From: Acidobacteriota bacterium
Lineage (GTDB): Bacteria; Acidobacteriota; UBA6911; RPQK01; JAJDTT01
Reading direction: 5' to 3'
DNA: 32,926 nucleotides
Assembly (NCBI GenBank): GCA_022827025.1
Contig: JAJDTT010000121.1
Coordinates: forward strand, 1-32,926
Below, piece by piece: positions 5,021 to 32,173 of this stretch. The notes beneath the pieces are model-generated. The model saw only the letters and a program-made list of their open reading frames with translations, was not told the origin of the DNA and did not search any database. A program made the translations under genes and the position numbers. Every line of letters starts with the position of its first letter. Position 1 is the stretch's first letter.

Positions 5021-5863
5021 TTGCGACTGAAACATGCGATCTGCAGTGAGATTTTTGGAGACCAGGACCTGGCCCGGACCTGCCGGACCGTCCGCGCACT
5101 GGGCTACCGGGGCCTGGAGGTGGCCCCCTTCATCCTGGCCGACTCGGTGGATGAGATCCCGCTCCGGCGGCGGCGGGAGATTCGCGAGACCATCGAAGGA
5201 GAGGGAATGGTCTGCTCGGGGATCCACTGGCTCCTGGTCAAACCCGAAGGGCTGCATCTGACGACCCGGGACCGGACCCTGCGGGAGAAAAGTTGGTCCT
5301 ATCTCTCACGGCTCATCGACTTCTGCGGGGACCTGGGGGGCCATCTCATGATCCTCGGCTCGCCCCAACAGCGGAGCACCCGGGACGGAATGACGCCCCA
5401 AGAAGCGTTGGGCCGGCTTGCCGAGGGTCTGGCCGAGCTGGCCCCCTCGGCGCGGGACCGGGACGTGACGCTCCTGATGGAGGCCGTTTCGAGCGAGGAG
5501 ACGGATGTGGTCTCCACTCTGGCGGAGGCGGTCGAAGTGGTGGACCGGGTCTCCCACAGTCACGTCCGGACCATGTTCGACTGCCACAACGCCGCCGACG
5601 AGGGGGGCGACTTCCTCCACCTGGCCGAGCGTTACTGGTCCCGAATTCGCCACGTTCACGTGAACGAGATCGACGGCCGCCATCCCGGCACCGGAGGCGT
5701 GGACTTCGAACGCCTCCTTAAATTCCTTCGGGATCGGAACTACGGGGGCTGGGTCTCCTTGGAGGTCTTCGATTTCCAGGCCGGCGGCGAGCGAATCGCG
5801 CGGGAAAGCATCTCCTACCTCCGGGACATTGAATCCCGGCTGGATTCGGCCTCGAACCATTGA
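5021..5863 (+). CDS. Sugar phosphate isomerase/epimerase family TIM-barrel protein
   Basis: This 280-residue protein belongs to the xylose-isomerase-like/AP-endonuclease-2 TIM-barrel family, whose members isomerise or epimerise keto sugars using a divalent metal. The expected metal-site carboxylates and histidines are visible in LLMEAV, MFDCHNA, RHVHVNEIDGRHPGTG and VSLEVFD. Substrate cannot be named. I chose the TTG at 5021 because the protein then begins MRLKHAICSEIF, a typical first strand, and GGAG (5010-5013) sits seven bases upstream. The open frame runs further upstream only as an antisense shadow of the DUF1501 gene. The enolase-superfamily gene begins seven bases downstream, suggesting a two-gene sugar or sugar-acid pathway. 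Confidence 0.85.
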   Translation: MRLKHAICSEIFGDQDLARTCRTVRALGYRGLEVAPFILADSVDEIPLRRRREIRETIEGEGMVCSGIHWLLVKPEGLHLTTRDRTLREKSWSYLSRLIDFCGDLGGHLMILGSPQQRSTRDGMTPQEALGRLAEGLAELAPSARDRDVTLLMEAVSSEETDVVSTLAEAVEVVDRVSHSHVRTMFDCHNAADEGGDFLHLAERYWSRIRHVHVNEIDGRHPGTGGVDFERLLKFLRDRNYGGWVSLEVFDFQAGGERIARESISYLRDIESRLDSASNH

Positions 5864-5870
5864 CACCATT

Positions 5871-7178
5871 ATGTTCCCATTGGACCGCCGTGACTTCCTG
5901 ATCGCCACGGCGGGCATCGGATCGTCGGCCGGCACCCTTTTTGCGTCCACACCGAGGCCACCGGAGCCTCCCAGGCGGAGAAGAACAGGACCCATGAAAA
6001 TCACCGGATTGAAGACCTACATGTTCAACGTTCCGACCGGAAGCCCTCCCCCCGGGAAGAGGGGCCGCAGGAGCATCGCCAGCACCTTCAAGACCTGGCT
6101 GTTCCTCAAGGTCGAGACCGATACCGAGCTCTCGGGCTGGGGCGAAGGGAGCATCGAATGGCTCTCGCCGGTGGTCAAGACGACGCTGGAGGGCTGGCGG
6201 GAACTCCTGGTGGGGCAGGATCCTCTCAACGTGGTCGCCCTGTGCGACGACATCTCGGACCGGCTCCCCTGGAAGGGCGGACCGGTCCTGGGTTCGGCGC
6301 TGGCGGCGGTGAACATGGCCCTCTACGACATCGCCGGCAAAGCCTGGGGAGTCCCCATCTACCAGATCCTCGGCGGCCGGAAGCGGGACCGCATCCGCGT
6401 CTACCATGGCGGCATCAGCTTCGAATCGGTCCAGGAAGCCGTGGCCCGGGCCCGGGCCGCCGTCGCCTCCGGCGTTCGAGGTCTCAAGGGGAACCCACTG
6501 GAGATGCGAACCTGGCCCATGGACCGGGCCGCCTTGGACGAGTGCGTCCGGATCGTGGCGGCGGTTCGAGAGGAGGTGGGGCCGGAGATCGACCTGATGC
6601 TGGACACCCACGGCAGTCCCAATCCGGCCCTGGCCATCGCCTTCGCCGACGCCGTGGCGCCCTACAAGCCTCTCTTCCTGGAGGAGCCTTGCAAAGTGGG
6701 ATCCATCGCGGCGCTCAAGGAGATCTCGGCGCGCAGCCCGGTTCCCATCGCCACCGGTGAGAAACTCTTCTCCTACCGGGAGTTCAAGGAAGTCATCGAC
6801 GCCCGCGCCTGCGCCTTTCTCCAGCCCGACCTGAGCCACAGCTTCGGCATCACCCAGTTCCTGGCGGTCTCGCGCCTGGCCGAAGACGCCCAGATCCTCA
6901 TGGCGCCCCACAACGCGTCAGGCCCCATCCATTTGGCCGCTCTTTTTCAGGCGGACGCCGTCATCTCCAACTTCCTGGTCCAGGAAGCCTGGGGCCTGGA
7001 GCGGATGGACCGGTACGTGGAGCATGACCTCTCCCTGGTCGATGGCCACGTCCGCCTGAGCGACCGGCCCGGCCTCGGGATCCGCGTCAAGGAATCCGAC
7101 ATCGCCAAGCTCCGCTACGACGACTCCATGTCCTACCGCCAATACCGCCACGCCGACGGCAGTTGGAAAGGCTGGTAA
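5871..7178 (+). CDS. Mandelate racemase/muconate lactonizing enzyme family (galactonate-dehydratase-like)
   Basis: This enolase-superfamily protein of 435 residues from ATG 5871 probably dehydrates or epimerises a sugar acid. The three metal-ligand motifs of the barrel are clear: LMLDTHG, FLEEP and IATGEKLF. QPDLSHSFGITQ and LMAPHNASGP, with the catalytic-type histidine, complete the site; the KGN segment at VRGLKGNPL marks the second-strand lysine. Closest by motif are D-galactonate dehydratase relatives. From 5871 the N-terminus reads DRRDFLIATAGIGSSAG, a credible Tat signal. A second ATG at 5994 (MKITGLKTYMFNV) has a better ribosome site (AGGA) and would give a cytoplasmic enzyme of 394 residues. 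Both starts are defensible. Confidence 0.88.
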   Translation: MFPLDRRDFLIATAGIGSSAGTLFASTPRPPEPPRRRRTGPMKITGLKTYMFNVPTGSPPPGKRGRRSIASTFKTWLFLKVETDTELSGWGEGSIEWLSPVVKTTLEGWRELLVGQDPLNVVALCDDISDRLPWKGGPVLGSALAAVNMALYDIAGKAWGVPIYQILGGRKRDRIRVYHGGISFESVQEAVARARAAVASGVRGLKGNPLEMRTWPMDRAALDECVRIVAAVREEVGPEIDLMLDTHGSPNPALAIAFADAVAPYKPLFLEEPCKVGSIAALKEISARSPVPIATGEKLFSYREFKEVIDARACAFLQPDLSHSFGITQFLAVSRLAEDAQILMAPHNASGPIHLAALFQADAVISNFLVQEAWGLERMDRYVEHDLSLVDGHVRLSDRPGLGIRVKESDIAKLRYDDSMSYRQYRHADGSWKGW

Positions 7179-7479
7179 AGGCGAAACCCGCAGGAGCGGC
7201 GACTTTCTAGTCGCCGACTGGGATCGGCGTCCTTCCGGGCGCCGGGAATGGCGCCGAGGAGCGGCGGCGTGGAGCGACGACATCCCTGCCGCCGGGGGCG
7301 GCGACATCCTTGTCGCCGCAGGAGCGGCGGCATCCTTGCCGCCGACCAGGGGGGTAGGGGGGACGGTAGTCCCCACTCTACGCTTTCCGGCCGCCGAATC
7401 GTATGGCAAGAAAGAAGAAGACCGGGCGGCTGGAAACCGCCCTTCCCGTCGGGCGATTAGGAAATCGCCCCTCCGCACG
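7179..7479. repeat. Intergenic cluster of short palindromes with varying arms
   Basis: The 301 bases between two convergent genes hold no credible ORF but at least five perfect hairpins. Three share a plan: CGGCGAC-TTTCTA-GTCGCCG (7197-7216), CGGCGAC-ATCCTT-GTCGCCG (7299-7318) and CGGCGGC-ATCCTT-GCCGCCG (7325-7344). Two carry the same leader GCAGGAG (7190-7196 and 7318-7324). Degenerate copies lie at 7225-7293. Then come GGGGAC-GGTA-GTCCCC (7359-7374), GGGCGG-CTGGAAA-CCGCCC (7424-7442) and GGGCGAT-TAGGAA-ATCGCCC (7451-7470). Arms change in matched pairs, so pairing is conserved over sequence. Some copies may act as bidirectional terminators, though none has a T tract. A REP-like repeat family is the best description. 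Confidence 0.85.
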
Positions 7480-20805: not shown

Positions 20806-23800
20806 ATGGTTAGACGGAAACTCCTGCCAGCTTTGCTTCTTACCATCCTGCTGGTGGCGGTCGTGTCAATCCACACGGCCAGCCTGAAGCTGGACGCATG
20901 GGTCGAGGCCTGGATCGTGGAGCGGCTCGAACGACAATTCAGCGTGCTGGTCGAAGTCGGCCAAACGAGGGTCCATCTCCTGGAGACCCGGCTGGAAATT
21001 CACGATCTCCGACTGTTCAATCGAGCCCGGCCCGTCACCGAACCGGCATTCGAAAGTGATCTCATCCTGCTGGACTTCTCGTTCACGCATTTCTTTCTGC
21101 CCGAAATATCACTGGACCACGTGCTTCTTGATTCACCCAGGGTTCGCCTTCTCACGGATCCCAACCAGCAGTCGAATCTTTCGAACCTGTTGCGAATGAA
21201 TGGATCTGATCCGACTCCTCCGCTTTCGCCGGCCCGGTTGGGAATCAAACACCTCACCATCCATCAGGGGCTGTTCCTGGTCGAACAAAATCCTGTGTCC
21301 ATACAGTCTTCGGAGGGAGCAGTGACGGCTGAGCTGAGGTATTTTCCCGAGTCGGGAGAATACCGTGGCCGGACCAGGTTCAATTCACTCGATCTGTCGA
21401 TCAACGGCGTGACCGTCGAGGATATGGGTGTCCTCTTGGACTTCGAATGGGCCGGCGACAGCTTTCGGGTCGTCTCCTTCAAGGTGGATTCGGAAGCATT
21501 CGGGCTGCAGGCCCATGGCGACGTCACTTTGAAGGGCGCCGTAACCTATGGTCTTGAGGGCAGGGCCTCCCTCAACCTGGAAGAACTGGGCGAAGCGGGC
21601 TTCCCCGATCTCCTGCGAAAGGGAATTTTGTCCCTCGATGGGAACCTGTCCGGCCGAGGGAAGGATTTTTCCTTTCGGGGAGAAGCCCGTTCCGACGAGA
21701 TTGTGCTCTCCGATTTCTACTTTCGGCAACTCAGAGCAGCCTTGCGGCTGGACGCCGATTCGGTGAGCTTCGAAAACCTTGAGACCGGATTCGAAGGCGG
21801 CCGGCTGAAAGGGAGCGGGACCCTGAGTTGGAATCCGAAGCGACGCTCGGAGTTTCAGGTGACCGGATCCCGCATCCGTTTTCAGCGCCTGGCGACGCTG
21901 CTCGGGCCGAAGAATGTGCCGGCCCGAGGCACTTTCGACCTGAGCGCCCGGATCCAATGGCCGGCCCTACAGTGGAGACGGATGAATGGGACCGGAAATC
22001 TTGCGTATAGAGGAGACTTTCCAGCAGAGGGTCGACCCGAGCTTCCTGCCGTGACCTTTGAAGGACATTCACGGGTTGCTTTCAAAGAAGGGACCGCAAA
22101 ATTCTCCCGGGGGGTTCTCCGCACGTCCGAGAGTCACACCACTTACCGTGGGTACGTTGGTCTCCGAAGCGGCTATCGGTTTGATCTGGACATCCGGTCC
22201 GAGCAAAGTAATGACTTGCTCAGGTTGGCCGCGCTCCCGGCCCTGCCGGACCGATTCCTGAACCGGGATTTCATCGATATCCAGGGCTCCACCCGAGCCA
22301 GCGTCAGATTGCAGTCCGCCCAACCCCGGCTCGCAGGCTCCTTGCGCATCCAGGATGTTCACATCCGCCAGGAACTTCCGGGTGATCTTCGGACAGACGT
22401 GGAATACGACGGGGAAGTGCTGGAACTCACGGATGTCCGGTTGGCCGGGCCGGGATTCCGCCTCCGGAGCGGATTGAGCGTCACACCTTCCACTGGAGAG
22501 ATCGGTTGGTTGGAGCCTGTGGAACTCCGGTTGGACGACGTCCCCATCGAACGGTTCCTCTCTTTGACGGACCGCGAGATCCCGCTGCGGGGCCGCGCCA
22601 CCGGCCGTTTGCAGCTTGCACAGGCGGATTCCCAGGGACTCACGGGGAGTGGAGACCTCACACTCACTGGGGTGGAGGCTTACGGGGAGCACGTTGACCG
22701 TCTGAGCAGCGAGATTCGGCTCGACGGCCGGAGGCTTTTTTTGAACGGGTTTCGGGCGACGCTCGGAAGGGGAAACCTGTCCGGCCAGATCGAGGTGGAC
22801 CTCGAAAACCAGACCGGAACAGCTTCACTGGCCGGTTCCCGGCTCTCGCTCCACCAGGTTGAAAGGATACGGCAGGCACTTCCCCTGCGGGGGGAGGTCG
22901 ATTTCGACCTTCACGCCCAGGGACACTTGATGAGCCCCGATTTTCAGTTGAATCTGACGGGGGACAGAGTCGTCATTGCGGACCGGGTCCTGGAAAACGT
23001 TCGGCTCCACGCAGAGAGCGACCAGGAAGTGGTCCGATTTCATTTCACCCACGCGTTCCTCGAAAATCTTTTTCGCGTGGAAGGTCGACTTGATCGCCGG
23101 GAGCCCTACACCTTGCAGGCCGGGGCCGGCCTGAAAGACGTGCCTCTGAAACCTTATCTGGACCTGCTGGCGCTGGAGGTTCCGTCCGACGTGGAAGGCA
23201 TCCTGACGGGTCGACTGACGGTGGCCGGTCCTCTCTTCGATCCTGGCCGTCTGGAGGTGCGGGCCGAGCTGTCTGACCTGACACTTTCCCTGTCCGGCTA
23301 TGAACTCAGGAATCGGAGTCCCTTGCAGCTCGTCTACAGCCACCCCGGCTTACAGGTTTCACCGTTTCGTCTCGGAGGCGAACAGACGGAACTGCAAATC
23401 GGTGGACGATGGGATCCGGGTGAAAGCAAGAATCCCGGCATTGAAATCAGTGGCCTGGTGAATCTGACGGCATTCAACACTATTTTGCCGGCTGGAGCCA
23501 TGGCAGGCCAGCTACGCCTGCAGGCACTGGTCGCCGGTTCCCTTGGCAATCCGCAGATTCTCGGCTCTGCCCAATTGGAGGAGGGACTTCTGAACCACCC
23601 CGATCTGCCCACCGCTCTGTTCGATGTGGCGGGACAGCTCCGCTTCACGGCCAATCAGGTTGCTCTGGACAATTTCTCGGCTCAAACCGCCTACGGACCC
23701 GTCAGCTTGGAAGGGGGGATCTTCCTGGAAGGCTTTTTGCCCGCCCGTTGGCAGGTCCATCTGCTCGCCGAAGGACTCCGCGTAGACTACCCTCCGCAGA

Positions 23801-24723
23801 CCGTTTCGATCCTGGACGTCGATGCGGACCTGGTCCGAAGCGAGTTTCAGGATCTGGTTTCGGGCAAGATCCGGGTTGTCTCAGCCGACTACACCGAAAA
23901 TGTCTCGGTCGGCCAGATCCTGTCGCTGTATGCCCGCCGTGAAACCGAAGCGTCCCCACCCGCAGGAGGGCGCGATGTCAAACTGGCGGTAACGGTTGAA
24001 GGACAGCAGAGCTTGCGCGCCCGGAACAATCTGATCGACGCGGTGGGAAGCATCCATCTGAACGTTCGTGGCACGCTACGGGACCCGGTCATGCTGGGCA
24101 CCATCACGGTTGACGAAGGGCGGCTTTATATCGAGCAGAATGAGTACGAAATCACCCGGGGCATGGTTCACTTCAACAATCCCCGACGCACCCAACCCAC
24201 CTGGAATGTGGAGGCACTGACCCAGGCGAGAGATTTTTCGGTCACTGCCCGAATTCAGGGCTCGTTCGACCAGTTGCGTCTCTCTCTCAGTTCCGACCCT
24301 CCTCTGCCCTCCCCATTGATCCTATCCCTCCTGGCCGTGGGGCAGACGCCGGAAGAGATCCTGGGAACCTCCGGGCAACCGCACCCGCAAATCGGACACC
24401 TGGCGGCTATCGGAGCGGGCACTGTCTTGAGCAAGAGCCTGACGGCCCCCCTGGCATCGCGAACCAGCCGCTTCCTTGGACTCGACCAATTCTCCGTGGA
24501 CCCCTTCTTATATGGAAGTGAGCGTGATCCCGGGGCCCGAGTCACGCTGGGCAAGCAATTGGGCAGGGGGCTGTCCTTGAACTACAGCATGGATCTGGGC
24601 AACACCAGCCAGGGCCAGATCGTCGTTTTCGAGTATCGAGTCACGGATTGGCTCACGGCCCTCGGAACCCGTGAACAGGACGGCTCCGTCGCTGTTGACT
24701 TCAAGCTCAAGAAACGATTTTAA
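20806..24723 (+). CDS. tamB: TamB-family translocation and assembly module protein
   Basis: This 1305-residue protein has one N-terminal transmembrane helix (about residues 7-26) and then a very long repetitive beta-rich region of AsmA/TamB type, with recurring short strands such as LDLSINGVTVEDMGVLLDFE, LSGRGKDFSFRG and VDFDLHAQG. The last ~350 residues match the TamB C-terminal domain (DUF490): ILGSAQLEEGLL, LRVDYPPQTVSI, TVDEGRLYIEQNEYEITRG and the closing Phe. Such proteins span the periplasm from the inner membrane to an Omp85 partner and are linked to phospholipid transport or autotransporter assembly. The adjacent Omp85 gene is the expected partner. ATG 20806 has AGGA six bases upstream. 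Length is close to E. coli TamB (1259). Confidence 0.92.
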   Translation: MVRRKLLPALLLTILLVAVVSIHTASLKLDAWVEAWIVERLERQFSVLVEVGQTRVHLLETRLEIHDLRLFNRARPVTEPAFESDLILLDFSFTHFFLPEISLDHVLLDSPRVRLLTDPNQQSNLSNLLRMNGSDPTPPLSPARLGIKHLTIHQGLFLVEQNPVSIQSSEGAVTAELRYFPESGEYRGRTRFNSLDLSINGVTVEDMGVLLDFEWAGDSFRVVSFKVDSEAFGLQAHGDVTLKGAVTYGLEGRASLNLEELGEAGFPDLLRKGILSLDGNLSGRGKDFSFRGEARSDEIVLSDFYFRQLRAALRLDADSVSFENLETGFEGGRLKGSGTLSWNPKRRSEFQVTGSRIRFQRLATLLGPKNVPARGTFDLSARIQWPALQWRRMNGTGNLAYRGDFPAEGRPELPAVTFEGHSRVAFKEGTAKFSRGVLRTSESHTTYRGYVGLRSGYRFDLDIRSEQSNDLLRLAALPALPDRFLNRDFIDIQGSTRASVRLQSAQPRLAGSLRIQDVHIRQELPGDLRTDVEYDGEVLELTDVRLAGPGFRLRSGLSVTPSTGEIGWLEPVELRLDDVPIERFLSLTDREIPLRGRATGRLQLAQADSQGLTGSGDLTLTGVEAYGEHVDRLSSEIRLDGRRLFLNGFRATLGRGNLSGQIEVDLENQTGTASLAGSRLSLHQVERIRQALPLRGEVDFDLHAQGHLMSPDFQLNLTGDRVVIADRVLENVRLHAESDQEVVRFHFTHAFLENLFRVEGRLDRREPYTLQAGAGLKDVPLKPYLDLLALEVPSDVEGILTGRLTVAGPLFDPGRLEVRAELSDLTLSLSGYELRNRSPLQLVYSHPGLQVSPFRLGGEQTELQIGGRWDPGESKNPGIEISGLVNLTAFNTILPAGAMAGQLRLQALVAGSLGNPQILGSAQLEEGLLNHPDLPTALFDVAGQLRFTANQVALDNFSAQTAYGPVSLEGGIFLEGFLPARWQVHLLAEGLRVDYPPQTVSILDVDADLVRSEFQDLVSGKIRVVSADYTENVSVGQILSLYARRETEASPPAGGRDVKLAVTVEGQQSLRARNNLIDAVGSIHLNVRGTLRDPVMLGTITVDEGRLYIEQNEYEITRGMVHFNNPRRTQPTWNVEALTQARDFSVTARIQGSFDQLRLSLSSDPPLPSPLILSLLAVGQTPEEILGTSGQPHPQIGHLAAIGAGTVLSKSLTAPLASRTSRFLGLDQFSVDPFLYGSERDPGARVTLGKQLGRGLSLNYSMDLGNTSQGQIVVFEYRVTDWLTALGTREQDGSVAVDFKLKKRF

Positions 24724-25000
24724 CTGGTTCTCCTCCGGAAGGTCCGGTTTTGGGGATTGGATCGAGTGGGACGAGGTATCGGAACCGGAATCGGACCGGG
24801 GCCGGGAGATGCCCGGTTGCTCCTTTTTTACCAATAACTCACACCTTTCCGGGTGAGAGCCGGACAAGGACGTTCGTACGGCAGTGGATCGCTTCCCCAT
24901 TCGTTGCGGCAAACTAGGAGCCTGCGCGGCAGAAATCAATCTACTGCGAAAGCGTAGAATCGGTCCATATTTCCCCGATTTCTCGGCGAATAGAACAACT
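24724..25000 (+). terminator. Gap between tamB and the Omp85 gene with weak terminator-like hairpins
   Basis: No gene is evident in these 277 bases. CCGGA (24735-24739) pairs with TCCGG (24743-24747) and is followed by TTTT, a weak rho-independent terminator just after tamB. A second hairpin pairs CTCAC (24838-24842) with GTGAG (24853-24857). TAGAAT (24955-24960) might be a -10 box for the Omp85 gene, without a clear -35. A GTG at 24884 extends the downstream frame but gives no signal peptide. Confidence 0.35.
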
Positions 25001-27922
25001 ATGCACCTCCCAATCGGGAAAATCTGGCCTCGATTCTCCACTTTCTCGCTACGATCATTTCTACCGCGCAGACTCCTAGCAGCCATGATCGGCCTGCCTC
25101 TCCTGCTGTTCCTGCCGGTTGAGGTGCGGGCCGATTTGCAATTCGAAGGAAAGATGGTCCGTCGCTTGGAAATTCGAGCGGATGGCCGGCTGACCAGAAT
25201 TTCCGAAGCGGACTTGTTCAAGTTGGCCGCAATTCGTGAAGGGGAACCCTATACCAGTTCCCGGGCTCAAGCCACGCTGCGTCGACTCTACTCCACAGGG
25301 ATCTTTCACGATGTTCAGATCCACGTTCGGGAATCGGCGAACGACGCGGTGTCGGTCACGGTGTTGCTGGTACGAAGATTTCTCATGGATCAGATCCGAT
25401 TCACCGGCCAGGCCGAAATCGACAGGAGACGACTCCGCCGACAGTTGGTCTTGAAATCCGGCGAACCGTACTCTGATGCCCGCCTCGAGGAGACCCTCGC
25501 CAGGTTGAGGAGATTCTACCGGAGGAACGGATTCCACCAGGCGGTCGTCGAGCCCCGATTCGAGATCGATCATGACGAGGCCAGTGTCACGTTGACATTC
25601 CGGATCATCGCCGGCCAGTTGGCACGGATGAAGGAAATCGAGATCGAAGCCCCCGGAGACGTGGACCTGGCGAGCGTACAAGGTTCGCTGGTGATCGCGA
25701 GAGGTTCGGGTTTCTCCAGGAGTCAACTTGACGAAGACATGCGCCGGGTGGAAAGGAACCTGGCCCGGCAGGGTTTCGCGGCAGCAAGCGTCCACGAGAA
25801 CCTGCAATACGACCGGACCGACAATACGGTATCGCTGCGGCTGCGGATTCGACCGGGCAACCGAAACGTGATCGAATTCGAGGGTATCGACCTGGATCAG
25901 GAAACGCTCGCCGCTCTTCCCATCTTCAGCCGGAAGGGACTACTGGAGAACCTCCTGGAAGCCACTACGGCGGAAATTCGGGAAATCCATCAACGCCGCG
26001 GCGACTTCCTGGCCCGAGTTGCGCTGGAGCGGCGAGACGGCGCCGAGTCGAACGCAATCGTGTTCAGGATCGAGAGAGGTGCGCGATTCAGGATCCGCAG
26101 CGTTCTTTTCGAAGGCAATGAATTTGTGGAAGACGGATCCCTGCTCGGAATCGTCCGCGTCAGGAAAAGCGGGATGTTTCGCAGAGGGCGGTTTACCGAC
26201 CGGATGGCCCAGGATGACGTGCGTGCTATTGAAGCCTACTACCGGCAAAGAGGATTCAGGGATGTAGAGGTCAGCTACGAACTGGTGGCAGCGAATCCAC
26301 CCGGCAACAACCTGATGCTGACCTATAAGATCCGGGAGGGCGTAAGGTATTTCATCCGGGACGTTCGGTTTGTCGGCAACGAGGAGCTGAACCGGACGGT
26401 TCTGGAGAACCAGCTCGAAGGCCGGCCGGGGACCCCGTTTGCTTTTGAAGATCTGACCCGGGATCGAGCCAATCTGTTGGCTGCGTACGAAGATCTGGGT
26501 TACCGGCAGGTGAATTGCCGCTTTCAGACCTCGTTTCCGGAGGTTGGCGCGGCCCACATCGTCTATTTCATCGAAGAAGGCCCCCGGCACTCCACTGATG
26601 TGGTCGTGCTCTCCGGGAATCTGAGCACGAAAGAGAGTGTGGTTCGAAAGGAAGTCTCCATTACGCCCGGAGATCCGGCATCACTCACTCAGATTCTGGC
26701 CACCGAAAGCGATCTGTACGACCTGTCCGTGTTCAGCCGCGTGGAGATTCGGGAGGTTCCGTCCTTCGTCGACCCGCTTCGCCGCAACATGGTGATCCAG
26801 GTGGAGGAGGCCAGGAAATATACGCTCTCCTACGGCGGCGGCTATGCCTCGTCCGAGGGACCGCGCGGCACGCTCGGCATCCGTAACGGCAACTTCCTGG
26901 GAAGAGCCGAGACTCTGGCTCTTGGTTTGCGGGCCGGCTCCAAACGGCAACGCGCCAACTTGTCGTACAGCGCGTCCCGGTTCTTCGGACGCAAGCTCCC
27001 GACGGTCACCTCCCTGGCAGCGAACAACGAAAGAGCCCTGACCACGTACACCGAAGGGGACATCCGGGCTCCCCGGGGGAAACCCTTCGACGAATTTCGT
27101 GTCATTTTCTCGACCCAAACGGAACGGCCGTTGAGCCGGCGCGAGTCCATGTTCTTTCGCTACAACTTCGAATCCGTGCAGATCACGCTTCCCGAGGATC
27201 TGGACATCCCCCTGCAGTTCTTCCGCGAGCAGGACCGGCTGCGGCTGTCCAGCTTCGCGCTGTCTTATCTGAACGAGTCGCGGGACGACCCGACCAACGC
27301 CACGCAGGGCTTCTTTCTGACCGGAGACACCAAACTCTCTCTCCAGGCAATCGGTTCGGACGCGAACTTTTTCCGCGCTCTGGTTCAGGGCCAGTACTAC
27401 CAGCCGCTCCTTCCCGATCTGATTCTGGCTTCCTCCCTCCGGCTGGGTTGGATTGGTTCATACGGACTCGCCGGCGCAGATGAAATGTCCAACCCAGTCC
27501 CCTTGAGCGAGCGATTCTTCTCCGGTGGATCGACCACGCTGCGGGGTCTGCCACGGGATCTCGCCGGGCCGCTTCTTCGCCATCCCGAGACGGACGAGAT
27601 CGTGCTCGTGAACCATCGTGGAGAGCCGGATCCGGCGGGCCGGCCCGTGCCGCTGGGCGGCAACGCTCTCTTGATTGGAAACCTGGAGCTCAGGTTTCCA
27701 CTGATGGCCTTCTTCACGGGCGCGCTGTTCTACGACGGCGGCAATGTTGTCCGTACTTTCGGAGATCTTCCGTCCACCCTGACACATGCTGTAGGCCTGG
27801 GAATTCAGGCCAACACGCCTTTGGGACCGATCCGCTTCGATGCGGGATACAATCCCCGGCCACCGGAGGTGGCGGGATTCAAGCACTGGAACTTTCACTT
27901 CATGCTGGGACCGTCGTTTTAA
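25001..27922 (+). CDS. Omp85-family outer membrane assembly protein with seven apparent POTRA domains
   Basis: A 973-residue outer-membrane protein. A signal peptide ends near VRA-DLQF (residues 20-44). By eye I divide residues 45-605 into seven POTRA-like units starting near 45, 127, 207, 289, 362, 449 and 530; units 5 and 6 carry the clearest pattern (RSVLFEGNEFV, RDVRFVGNEEL, then a Y/F-rich helix such as YYRQRGFRDVEV). Residues 606-973 form the 16-strand barrel, with GGSTTLRGLP as the L6 (V/L)RG(F/L) motif, YDGGNV, and a terminal Phe as OMP signal. E. coli BamA has five POTRAs and TamA three. Next to tamB it may serve as TamA-like partner or as BamA itself. The start at ATG 25001 is chosen for the signal peptide; ATG 25085 is an alternative. 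Confidence 0.9.
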   Translation: MHLPIGKIWPRFSTFSLRSFLPRRLLAAMIGLPLLLFLPVEVRADLQFEGKMVRRLEIRADGRLTRISEADLFKLAAIREGEPYTSSRAQATLRRLYSTGIFHDVQIHVRESANDAVSVTVLLVRRFLMDQIRFTGQAEIDRRRLRRQLVLKSGEPYSDARLEETLARLRRFYRRNGFHQAVVEPRFEIDHDEASVTLTFRIIAGQLARMKEIEIEAPGDVDLASVQGSLVIARGSGFSRSQLDEDMRRVERNLARQGFAAASVHENLQYDRTDNTVSLRLRIRPGNRNVIEFEGIDLDQETLAALPIFSRKGLLENLLEATTAEIREIHQRRGDFLARVALERRDGAESNAIVFRIERGARFRIRSVLFEGNEFVEDGSLLGIVRVRKSGMFRRGRFTDRMAQDDVRAIEAYYRQRGFRDVEVSYELVAANPPGNNLMLTYKIREGVRYFIRDVRFVGNEELNRTVLENQLEGRPGTPFAFEDLTRDRANLLAAYEDLGYRQVNCRFQTSFPEVGAAHIVYFIEEGPRHSTDVVVLSGNLSTKESVVRKEVSITPGDPASLTQILATESDLYDLSVFSRVEIREVPSFVDPLRRNMVIQVEEARKYTLSYGGGYASSEGPRGTLGIRNGNFLGRAETLALGLRAGSKRQRANLSYSASRFFGRKLPTVTSLAANNERALTTYTEGDIRAPRGKPFDEFRVIFSTQTERPLSRRESMFFRYNFESVQITLPEDLDIPLQFFREQDRLRLSSFALSYLNESRDDPTNATQGFFLTGDTKLSLQAIGSDANFFRALVQGQYYQPLLPDLILASSLRLGWIGSYGLAGADEMSNPVPLSERFFSGGSTTLRGLPRDLAGPLLRHPETDEIVLVNHRGEPDPAGRPVPLGGNALLIGNLELRFPLMAFFTGALFYDGGNVVRTFGDLPSTLTHAVGLGIQANTPLGPIRFDAGYNPRPPEVAGFKHWNFHFMLGPSF

Positions 27923-32097: not shown

Positions 32098-32173
32098 GGC
32101 GGCGTACCCAAGTGGCTAAGGGAGAGGTCTGCAAAACCTCCATTCACCGGTTCGAATCCGGTCGCCGCCTCCA
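32098..32173 (+). tRNA. tRNA-Cys (anticodon GCA)
   Basis: A complete cloverleaf is visible. The acceptor stem is GGCGGCG (32098-32104) with CGCCGCC (32163-32169); the D arm is CCC/GGG; the anticodon stem GAGGT/ACCTC encloses CTGCAAA with anticodon GCA at 32131-32133; the T arm is ACCGG-TTCGAAT-CCGGT. Discriminator base is U (32170), the cysteine identity base, and CCA (32171-32173) is encoded. It reads cysteine UGC/UGU codons. The following gene may share its transcript. Confidence 0.97.

Follow-up and report, generated by a model that had tools for sequence, protein, structure and literature searches.

The palindromes between positions 7179 and 7479 of the window (the whole 32,926-nucleotide stretch analyzed here) very probably form a composite REP of the BIME or REPIN kind, belonging to a GGAG-tagged family. 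Its probable agents of spread are HUH Y1 transposases of the RAYT type, whose genes lie in other parts of the genome. The mobility of these hairpins is inferred by analogy from the literature on group 3 TnpA_REP enzymes. A unit of this family consists of the leader GGAG, a stem of 7–8 bp and a loop TYCY; some copies have pair 8 open and thus a 6-nt loop, and some contain a T-G pair. In the following, G000 denotes the genome of the window and G001, G002 and G003 its genus mates.

A composite element between two convergent genes

The element spans approximately positions 7193–7474. A covariance model (R1) finds seven units in this gap, five on the plus strand and two on the minus strand (7424–7446 weakly), and has two more weak matches in other parts of the window, with E values of 0.07 and 0.8. 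The features are as follows:

5829–7178, plus strand: upstream gene for a mandelate racemase/enolase-type enzyme; orthologues in the three genus mates are 93–94% identical
7193–7216, plus strand: head hairpin 1; guide GGAG at 7193–7196, stem 7197–7204/7209–7216, CGGCGACT-TTCT-AGTCGCCG; 39.2 bits with the covariance model
7221–7244, plus strand: head hairpin 2, degenerate; leader GGAT, stem CGGCGTCC/GGGCGCCG with one T-G pair; 25.8 bits
7271–7294, plus strand: head hairpin 3, decayed; 25.0 bits
7295–7319, plus strand: head hairpin 4; leader GGGG, 9-bp stem 7298–7306/7311–7319, GCGGCGACA-TCCT-TGTCGCCGC; 29.3 bits
7321–7344, plus strand: head hairpin 5; GGAG, stem CGGCGGCA/TGCCGCCG at 7325–7344, loop TCCT; 39.0 bits
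7348–7374, plus strand: core motif AGGGGGGTAGGGGGGACGGTAGTCCCC, 28 bp past the start of the last head hairpin
7424–7446, minus strand: weak tail hairpin, GGGCGGTT-TCC-AGCCGCCC, leader GGAA; 16.8 bits, E 0.07
7451–7474, minus strand: tail hairpin; GGAG, stem GGGCGATT/AATCGCCC, loop TCCT; 35.5 bits
7480–8412, minus strand: downstream convergent gene of the endonuclease/exonuclease/phosphatase family

A preliminary description of this DNA had placed three hairpins at 7197–7216, 7298–7319 and 7325–7344. All three are present, and the reported change from A-T to G-C on both arms between the second and the third unit is there in the sequence. The 6-nt loop that had been assigned to them is not, since its outer bases pair and leave each unit with a stem of 8–9 bp and a 4-nt loop. 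The ATCCTT described as shared occurs in units two and three, while unit one has TTTCTA; similarly, the leader GCAGGAG holds for units one and three, with GGGG in unit two. That description lacked the inverted copy at 7451–7474, which carries further paired changes, and the weaker copies at 7221–7244, 7271–7294 and 7424–7446. The module ACTGGGATCGGCGTCCTTCCGGGCGCCG from the 7221–7244 region is also found after several other copies of the family. As DNA, the segment 7185–7480 folds better than its shuffles (z −5.5). Elsewhere in the window a TamB-like gene and an Omp85/POTRA gene adjoin at 20806–27922, and a tRNA gene at 32098–32170 is the sole Rfam match.

The same gap can be compared across the genus mates, as a single locus. 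G002 contains a composite with other stems, for example GGCGGT/ACCGCC next to the core versus GGCGGC/GCCGCC in G000. G003 retains one damaged head hairpin and a partial core followed by different sequence, and in G001 the composite is absent and a short spacer contains a different hairpin. Because the arrays differ in length, individual hairpins can be matched between genomes only with uncertainty.

Paired stem changes, placement and copy number

The covariation set was selected by GGAGSGGSG and the loop TYCY with the right arm unconstrained, and comprises 173 sites, 73 of them distinct. Seven perfect pairs are formed in 121 of these left-selected sites. Among the 73 distinct copies standard pairs fill 89.2% of the cells versus 72.4% in shuffles, and 110 cells are changed on both arms versus 38.9 (0/500 shuffles). 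The covariation score is 0.451, compared with 0.171 for shuffles and at most 0.164 with the arm slid. Two-sided changes occur at stem pairs 1, 4, 6, 7 and 8; at pairs 2, 3 and 5 the selection pattern fixed the left base. Weaker measures lie near the shuffles (5 versus 4.9 pairs with a double change; 17 versus 14.5 further pair types, 22/500). Since the copies are related, all these counts show pairing rather than a number of events.

Quasipalindrome correction, in which imperfect palindromes are mended by template switching, or gene conversion between copies would yield double stem changes in a single event even if the fold itself were unselected. Such processes also agree with the observation that tandem neighbors share the first stem pair in 23 of 26 cases in G001 (14.2 expected) and 12 of 13 in G000 (6.8 expected), but no such excess is seen in G003 (6/7, 5.9 expected) or G002 (5/8, 5.6 expected). 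These processes explain neither why leader and loop stay constant nor the copy number or the RAYT neighbors. We consider them an unlikely cause of the paired stems on their own; they could operate alongside spread by RAYT enzymes.

Two further patterns were considered and dropped. Tandem neighbors do not alternate between stem types, as pair 6 is the same in 9 of 26 cases in G001 (9.1 expected), 7 of 13 in G000 (4.8), 2 of 7 in G003 (3.2) and 2 of 8 in G002 (3.7). An excess of G-T over A-C mismatches is expected if only the GGAG strand folds. A first count of G-T to A-C (55:7 in G000, 31:3 in G001, 42:4 in G003 and 5:2 in G002) looked strong because the choice of register favored G-T; without this choice the count is 15 versus 10, which is not significant.

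In the sampled DNA the hairpins lie mostly outside predicted genes: 85 of 105 in G000 (13.6 expected), 64 of 79 in G001 (13.8) and 38 of 64 in G003 (9.3), with genes called crudely by a simple codon score and on contigs chosen from hit lists, so that hairpin densities in these stretches are not those of a random sample. Same-strand neighbors 20–45 bp apart fall at a distance of 24–29 bp in 46 of 54 cases. The core AGGGGGG..AGGGGGGAC occurs at 19 places of the sampled genus DNA. A head hairpin precedes 18 of these cores, at a spacing of 27–28 bp in 16, and tail hairpins are found at 10, the first at 71–102 bp. The first stem pair starts with C in 31 of 33 head hairpins and with G in 16 of 17 tail hairpins (Fisher 5e-10, a value that overstates independence since the copies are related). 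CT at position +2 past the hairpin, tried as a guess for the cut site, was abandoned: it occurs in 48 of 105 copies in G000 and in 8 of 75 in G001, 2 of 21 in G002, 4 of 61 in G003 and 0 of 7 in Chthoniobacter.

The position of the window hairpins between convergent genes would also suit RNA elements, such as terminators or 3′ stabilizers, with the pairing kept for the fold of the transcript. In G000, convergent gaps hold 26 of the 66 intergenic hairpins for which both neighbors were seen and make up 21% of the gap length, but this excess is absent from G001 (10/48, 34% of gap length) and G003 (3/30, 16%). A terminator-like scan match exists at 7442–7424 on the minus strand, on the tail side; against this, the scan gives one site where shuffles give 0.6, and the head hairpins are not followed by the T run of an intrinsic terminator. 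The only Rfam match in the window is the tRNA, and RNA elements leave the fixed GGAG leader, the tandem arrays and the RAYT neighbors unexplained. This makes a function in RNA an improbable explanation of the hairpins and their pairing.

The palindrome GGCGRCN6GYCGCC occurs at 229 sites in the 5.33-Mb genome of the window, compared with 22 for the reversed pattern. The GGAG-tagged pattern GGAGSGGSGNNNNYCYNNNCSCCS occurs at 586 sites, its reversed control at 2. A first composition control, a single Markov-3 sequence, showed a hairpin excess at most loop sizes and could not single out the GGAG family, so we used leader tests instead. GGAG stands before 57 of 208 perfect hairpins with 7-bp stems and 6-nt loops on both strands of 417 kb of G000, where 1.8 are expected. 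The corresponding numbers are 43 of 212 in G001, 20 of 58 in G002, 26 of 192 in G003 (GGGG precedes 24 more there) and 3 of 62 in a sample of Chthoniobacter (0.3 expected). Seven perfect pairs follow in 136 of 542 GGAG-N8-TYCY-N8 sites of the genus sample, with 16 different 7-bp stems. With other leaders the counts are 0/303 for GAGG, 0/252 for CCTC, 0/96 for GTAG, 0/270 for GGTG, 0/176 for GCAG, 0/137 for AGAG and 9/359 for GGGG; six of the seven alternatives together give 0/1,234.

The genus mates contain 263 (G001), 293 (G002) and 237 (G003) sites of the GGAGSGGSGNNNNYCYNNNCSCCS pattern (controls 0–1). Each of the other 392 of 396 phylum genomes has at most 3, the level of the controls (0–4). 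The family is restricted to one genus within this phylum sample. The preliminary description had proposed a covariance-model search, which we carried out with R1, a model built from 73 variants and not from the three units alone. It matches at least 162 sites in G000, 163 in G001, 183 in G002, 141 in G003 and 100 in Chthoniobacter flavus; these are lower bounds from 150 first-look candidates scored per genome, and matches in the sampled stretches that supplied the training variants are not independent. At the same depth of 150 candidates per genome, R1 has no match in seven order or class relatives or in G374. Chance palindromes, which the G+C content of the window (63%) and its 28 perfect hairpins of at least 7 bp (loops 3–10) might suggest, are refuted by the 586-versus-2 control and the leader comparison, contradicted by the other copy numbers and reversed controls, the covariation and the empty model searches in the seven relatives, and left with a negligible probability. 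Few copies or chance-level pairing had been named as findings that would speak against the proposed element; the 586 sites versus 2 and the 110 double-change cells versus 38.9 are neither.

Outside the phylum, Chthoniobacter flavus (Verrucomicrobiota) has 72 pattern sites (control 0). A sample of 188 genomes from its class, in which this species is counted, adds nine genomes with 8 to 84 sites (controls 0–2). Five genomes of this class (G409, G427, G436, G516 and G526) contain 14 to 84 GGAG hairpins each; inverted doublets with starts 34–112 bp apart are frequent among the copies listed there, a simpler, REPIN-like form. In G409, G436, G427 and G100, 22 of 25 inverted doublets counted by eye among the places listed combine a C-type hairpin with a G-type one. 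No such pairing is seen among the places listed in G526 and G516 (0/16) or in G401 and G414 (0/2), and the head/tail rule is therefore not general. Viral contigs gave no exact match to one hairpin variant. Some hairpin copies lie less than 100 bases from the starts of G000 contigs (e.g., C9:5, C66:3, C11:57 and C64:96), so this repeat may break the assembly of MAGs of the genus.

RAYT-like genes and their proposed guides

The preliminary description had noted no transposase nearby. This holds as far as the searches reach: a whole-genome Y1 search has no match on the contig of the window, and none of 14 Pfam-scanned open reading frames in the window is a transposase. The cognate RAYT that it had asked for may be found elsewhere, as G000 contains two RAYT-like genes, at C110 (RAYT-a) and C22, with hairpins of the GGAG kind on both sides. 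Copy number, model search and these genes with their flanking hairpins thus support its guess of a REP/RAYT system. For both proteins the best NCBIfam model is the REP-associated tyrosine transposase (NF047646; 65.8 and 72.7 bits, cut-off 80), and the Pfam Y1_Tnp scores exceed the Pfam cut-off. PDB matches are weak (E. coli TnpA_REP chain 4er8, E 0.05). The HUH motif and the tyrosine with its NP motif that characterize RAYTs appear as [KN]HVH and YIR[LEG]NP in six of the seven rows from the genus; the remaining row is a fragment that stops short of them. The catalytic role of these motifs is taken from the literature. Each genus genome has two PF01797 (Y1_Tnp) matches. One of those in G001 is broken, and in G003 one is close to RAYT-a. 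The second match in G003 (C11, 24.3 bits) was rejected as a close RAYT, since a protein search gives G003 one match.

RAYT-a is preceded and followed by the inverted doublet GGGGGGACTTTYAGTCCCCCC...GGGGGTAGGAAAACCCCC, and its reading frame terminates within the downstream hairpin. The sample has 15 more places where this doublet recurs over at least 50 bp; the contig of RAYT-a accounts for eight, the one at its 3′ end among them. At G000:C83:8200–10300, GGAG hairpins flank a RAYT-a remnant of about 42 codons that contains a stop and is seemingly intergenic by eye. This remnant looks like a miniature form of the RAYT unit derived by deletion.

The hairpins nearest to the genes differ by RAYT subclade, GGGGGAC being found with G000a and G002a and CGGCGT[CG] with G000b and G001a. 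The stem class of the window, SGGCG[AG][CT], is nearest to G002b and to G001b, which is broken and has it on one side only. Neighbors are also mixed: G000b has GGGGGAC at 413–491 bp, G000a has GGGCGAT and AGGCGGT at 555–679 bp, and G003a has one poor hairpin only. This link between RAYT and stem comes from six genes and is not clean. A third, intact RAYT type matching the stem class of the window was not found in G000.

RAYT-a has matches at E 1e-10 or better in 74 of 396 phylum genomes, the genus included. Copies with at least 64% identity over most of the length were seen in the genus only; G374 has a broken one at 55–61%. A Y1_Tnp gene is present in 66 of 100 relatives, and all 62 carriers among the 96 outside the genus are without GGAG hairpins, as expected, though not proven, if each RAYT has its own REP. 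Beside RAYT relatives we read, by eye, the leaders GTAG, GTGG, GTAA, GTGC, GAGC and GAAC, with GGAG in G374 and in G152/G189. The guide itself thus seems to vary among the RAYT relatives of Acidobacteriota.

We built a tree of 31 rows from the best tblastn piece per locus. It comprises 26 of 30 fetched loci (all but L154, L165, L166 and L167; the other RAYT-a matches had no locus), to which three more loci from the genus and two of the eight Y1 genes of Chthoniobacter were added. Leaders were labelled by hand: genus rows by genus, Chthoniobacter C54 and G374 from one hairpin each, and G064 as AGGA, though a one-base shift reads GGAG; seven rows are unlabelled. The genus, G374 and Chthoniobacter cluster with weak support (81/60). 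In the neighboring cluster (98/91), five rows are GTAG/GTGG and two are unlabelled. GGAG occurs a second time, separately, in G152, and the GTAG row G267 lies elsewhere. Chthoniobacter C46 is flanked by inverted hairpin pairs on each side; C54 has a single hairpin, 165 bp upstream of it. In the motif W[QE]xxYxD[RH]xxR, the residue after D is arginine in all ten GGAG rows that cover it (11 in total) and histidine in five of six GT[AG]G rows; arginine also occupies this site in all six GAAC/GTGC/GAGC rows and one GTAG row. By its spacing from W94-Q95 this residue maps to the guide-contacting position 101 (E. coli numbering), and the comparison is confounded by ancestry. We tentatively suggest that a RAYT clade in two phyla (the genus, one more Acidobacteriota genome and Chthoniobacter) switched its guide from GT[AG]G to GGAG, with guide and loop fixed, stems drifting in pairs and the ends of the composite distinguished by one swapped foot pair; at present this reading is somewhat doubtful. 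From the alignment, the switch may accompany a change from histidine to arginine at position 101.

Comparison with known REP systems

Group 3 TnpA_REP enzymes, according to passages of PMC8266576, cut short REPs with perfect stems: a mismatch is hardly tolerated and abolishes cutting, swapped stem blocks are tolerated with moderate loss, the loop is read and the tetranucleotide serves as guide. The E. coli group 2 enzyme needs a bulge instead (PMC8266576). The group 3 example REP_Sm of Stenotrophomonas maltophilia is described there as an 8-bp perfect palindrome with a 3-nt loop. Like group 3 REPs, the GGAG hairpins combine a short perfect stem and loop with a tetranucleotide at the foot, are intergenic and of high copy number, and lie beside RAYT genes. 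Unlike REP_Sm, they have GGAG and not GTAG as guide, many stem types per genome, and hosts in another phylum.

The composite resembles the BIMEs of E. coli (Y, Z1 and Z2) and the REPINs of Pseudomonas fluorescens SBW25, which passages of PMC3116915 describe as inverted pairs with two-sided types and dispersed doublets; it too alternates in orientation and is dispersed as a unit. Compensatory changes are reported in these passages for the REPIN spacer hairpin. Unlike BIMEs and REPINs, the GGAG composites carry as many as four hairpins in tandem on either side of the fixed core, and the first stem pair (C-G or G-C) distinguishes their head from their tail types. The proteins share HVH, W[QE] and YIRxNP with the RAYT/TIRYT proteins of Acidobacteria, a phylum known as host (parts of PMC3733652), and with TnpA_Y1 subclasses 2.4 and 2.7 (parts of PMC6006769). 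As far as these parts go, both papers tie such genes to GT[AG]G REPs or terminal inverted repeats.

In published descriptions, the foot of a REP hairpin carries the tetranucleotide GT[AG]G (sections of PMC6006769 and PMC3733652). The family departs from this description, with GGAG as leader and GTAG at 0/96, and we therefore class it as REP-like, a variant distinct from the GTAG REPs. It agrees with the canonical REP in its fully paired stem of at least 7 bp with a loop of 2–5 nt and in its mainly extragenic copies in excess of 100 per genome (586 sites; 85/105 outside genes). RAYT genes of the same genome are flanked at C110 and C22; it is only among genus mates that the closest hairpins to a RAYT are of the window's stem class. 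A search for the string GGAG in the main texts of PMC3733652, PMC2817692, PMC6006769 and PMC8266576 gave nothing, and none of the titles and abstracts listed from the open-licence literature on RAYT, REP/REPIN, or Acidobacteria or Chthoniobacter palindromes deals with a GGAG hairpin family.

By analogy to group 3 enzymes, we propose that an exposed single strand folds into the hairpin, and that the RAYT would read the GGAG guide, the loop and the intact stem and cut nearby. Cutting would let hairpin doublets be copied to new sites. Since the stem would be read for pairing more than for its letters, a changed pair would survive only if both arms change, and each surviving stem variant could found a subfamily. 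The preliminary description offered two alternatives, that the hairpin is under selection or that it replicates as a structured element. These need not exclude each other, because recognition of the folded strand by a RAYT would yield both together. The copy in the window is probably an old, composite and partly decayed member. No RAYT of the type that adjoins its stem class in the other genomes of the genus was found in G000, and this copy would therefore now be immobile or be moved in trans.

Bench work on RAYT–REP pairs has mostly dealt with Proteobacteria and their GTAG guides. This genus has another guide, hundreds of hairpins of many stem types and only a few RAYT genes, and so is a natural mutation series, showing which parts are kept by letter (guide and loop) and which by shape (stem). 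It offers guide–transposase pairs for testing the guide model. The proposed system would also explain otherwise puzzling intergenic palindromes in a little-known genus of Acidobacteriota.
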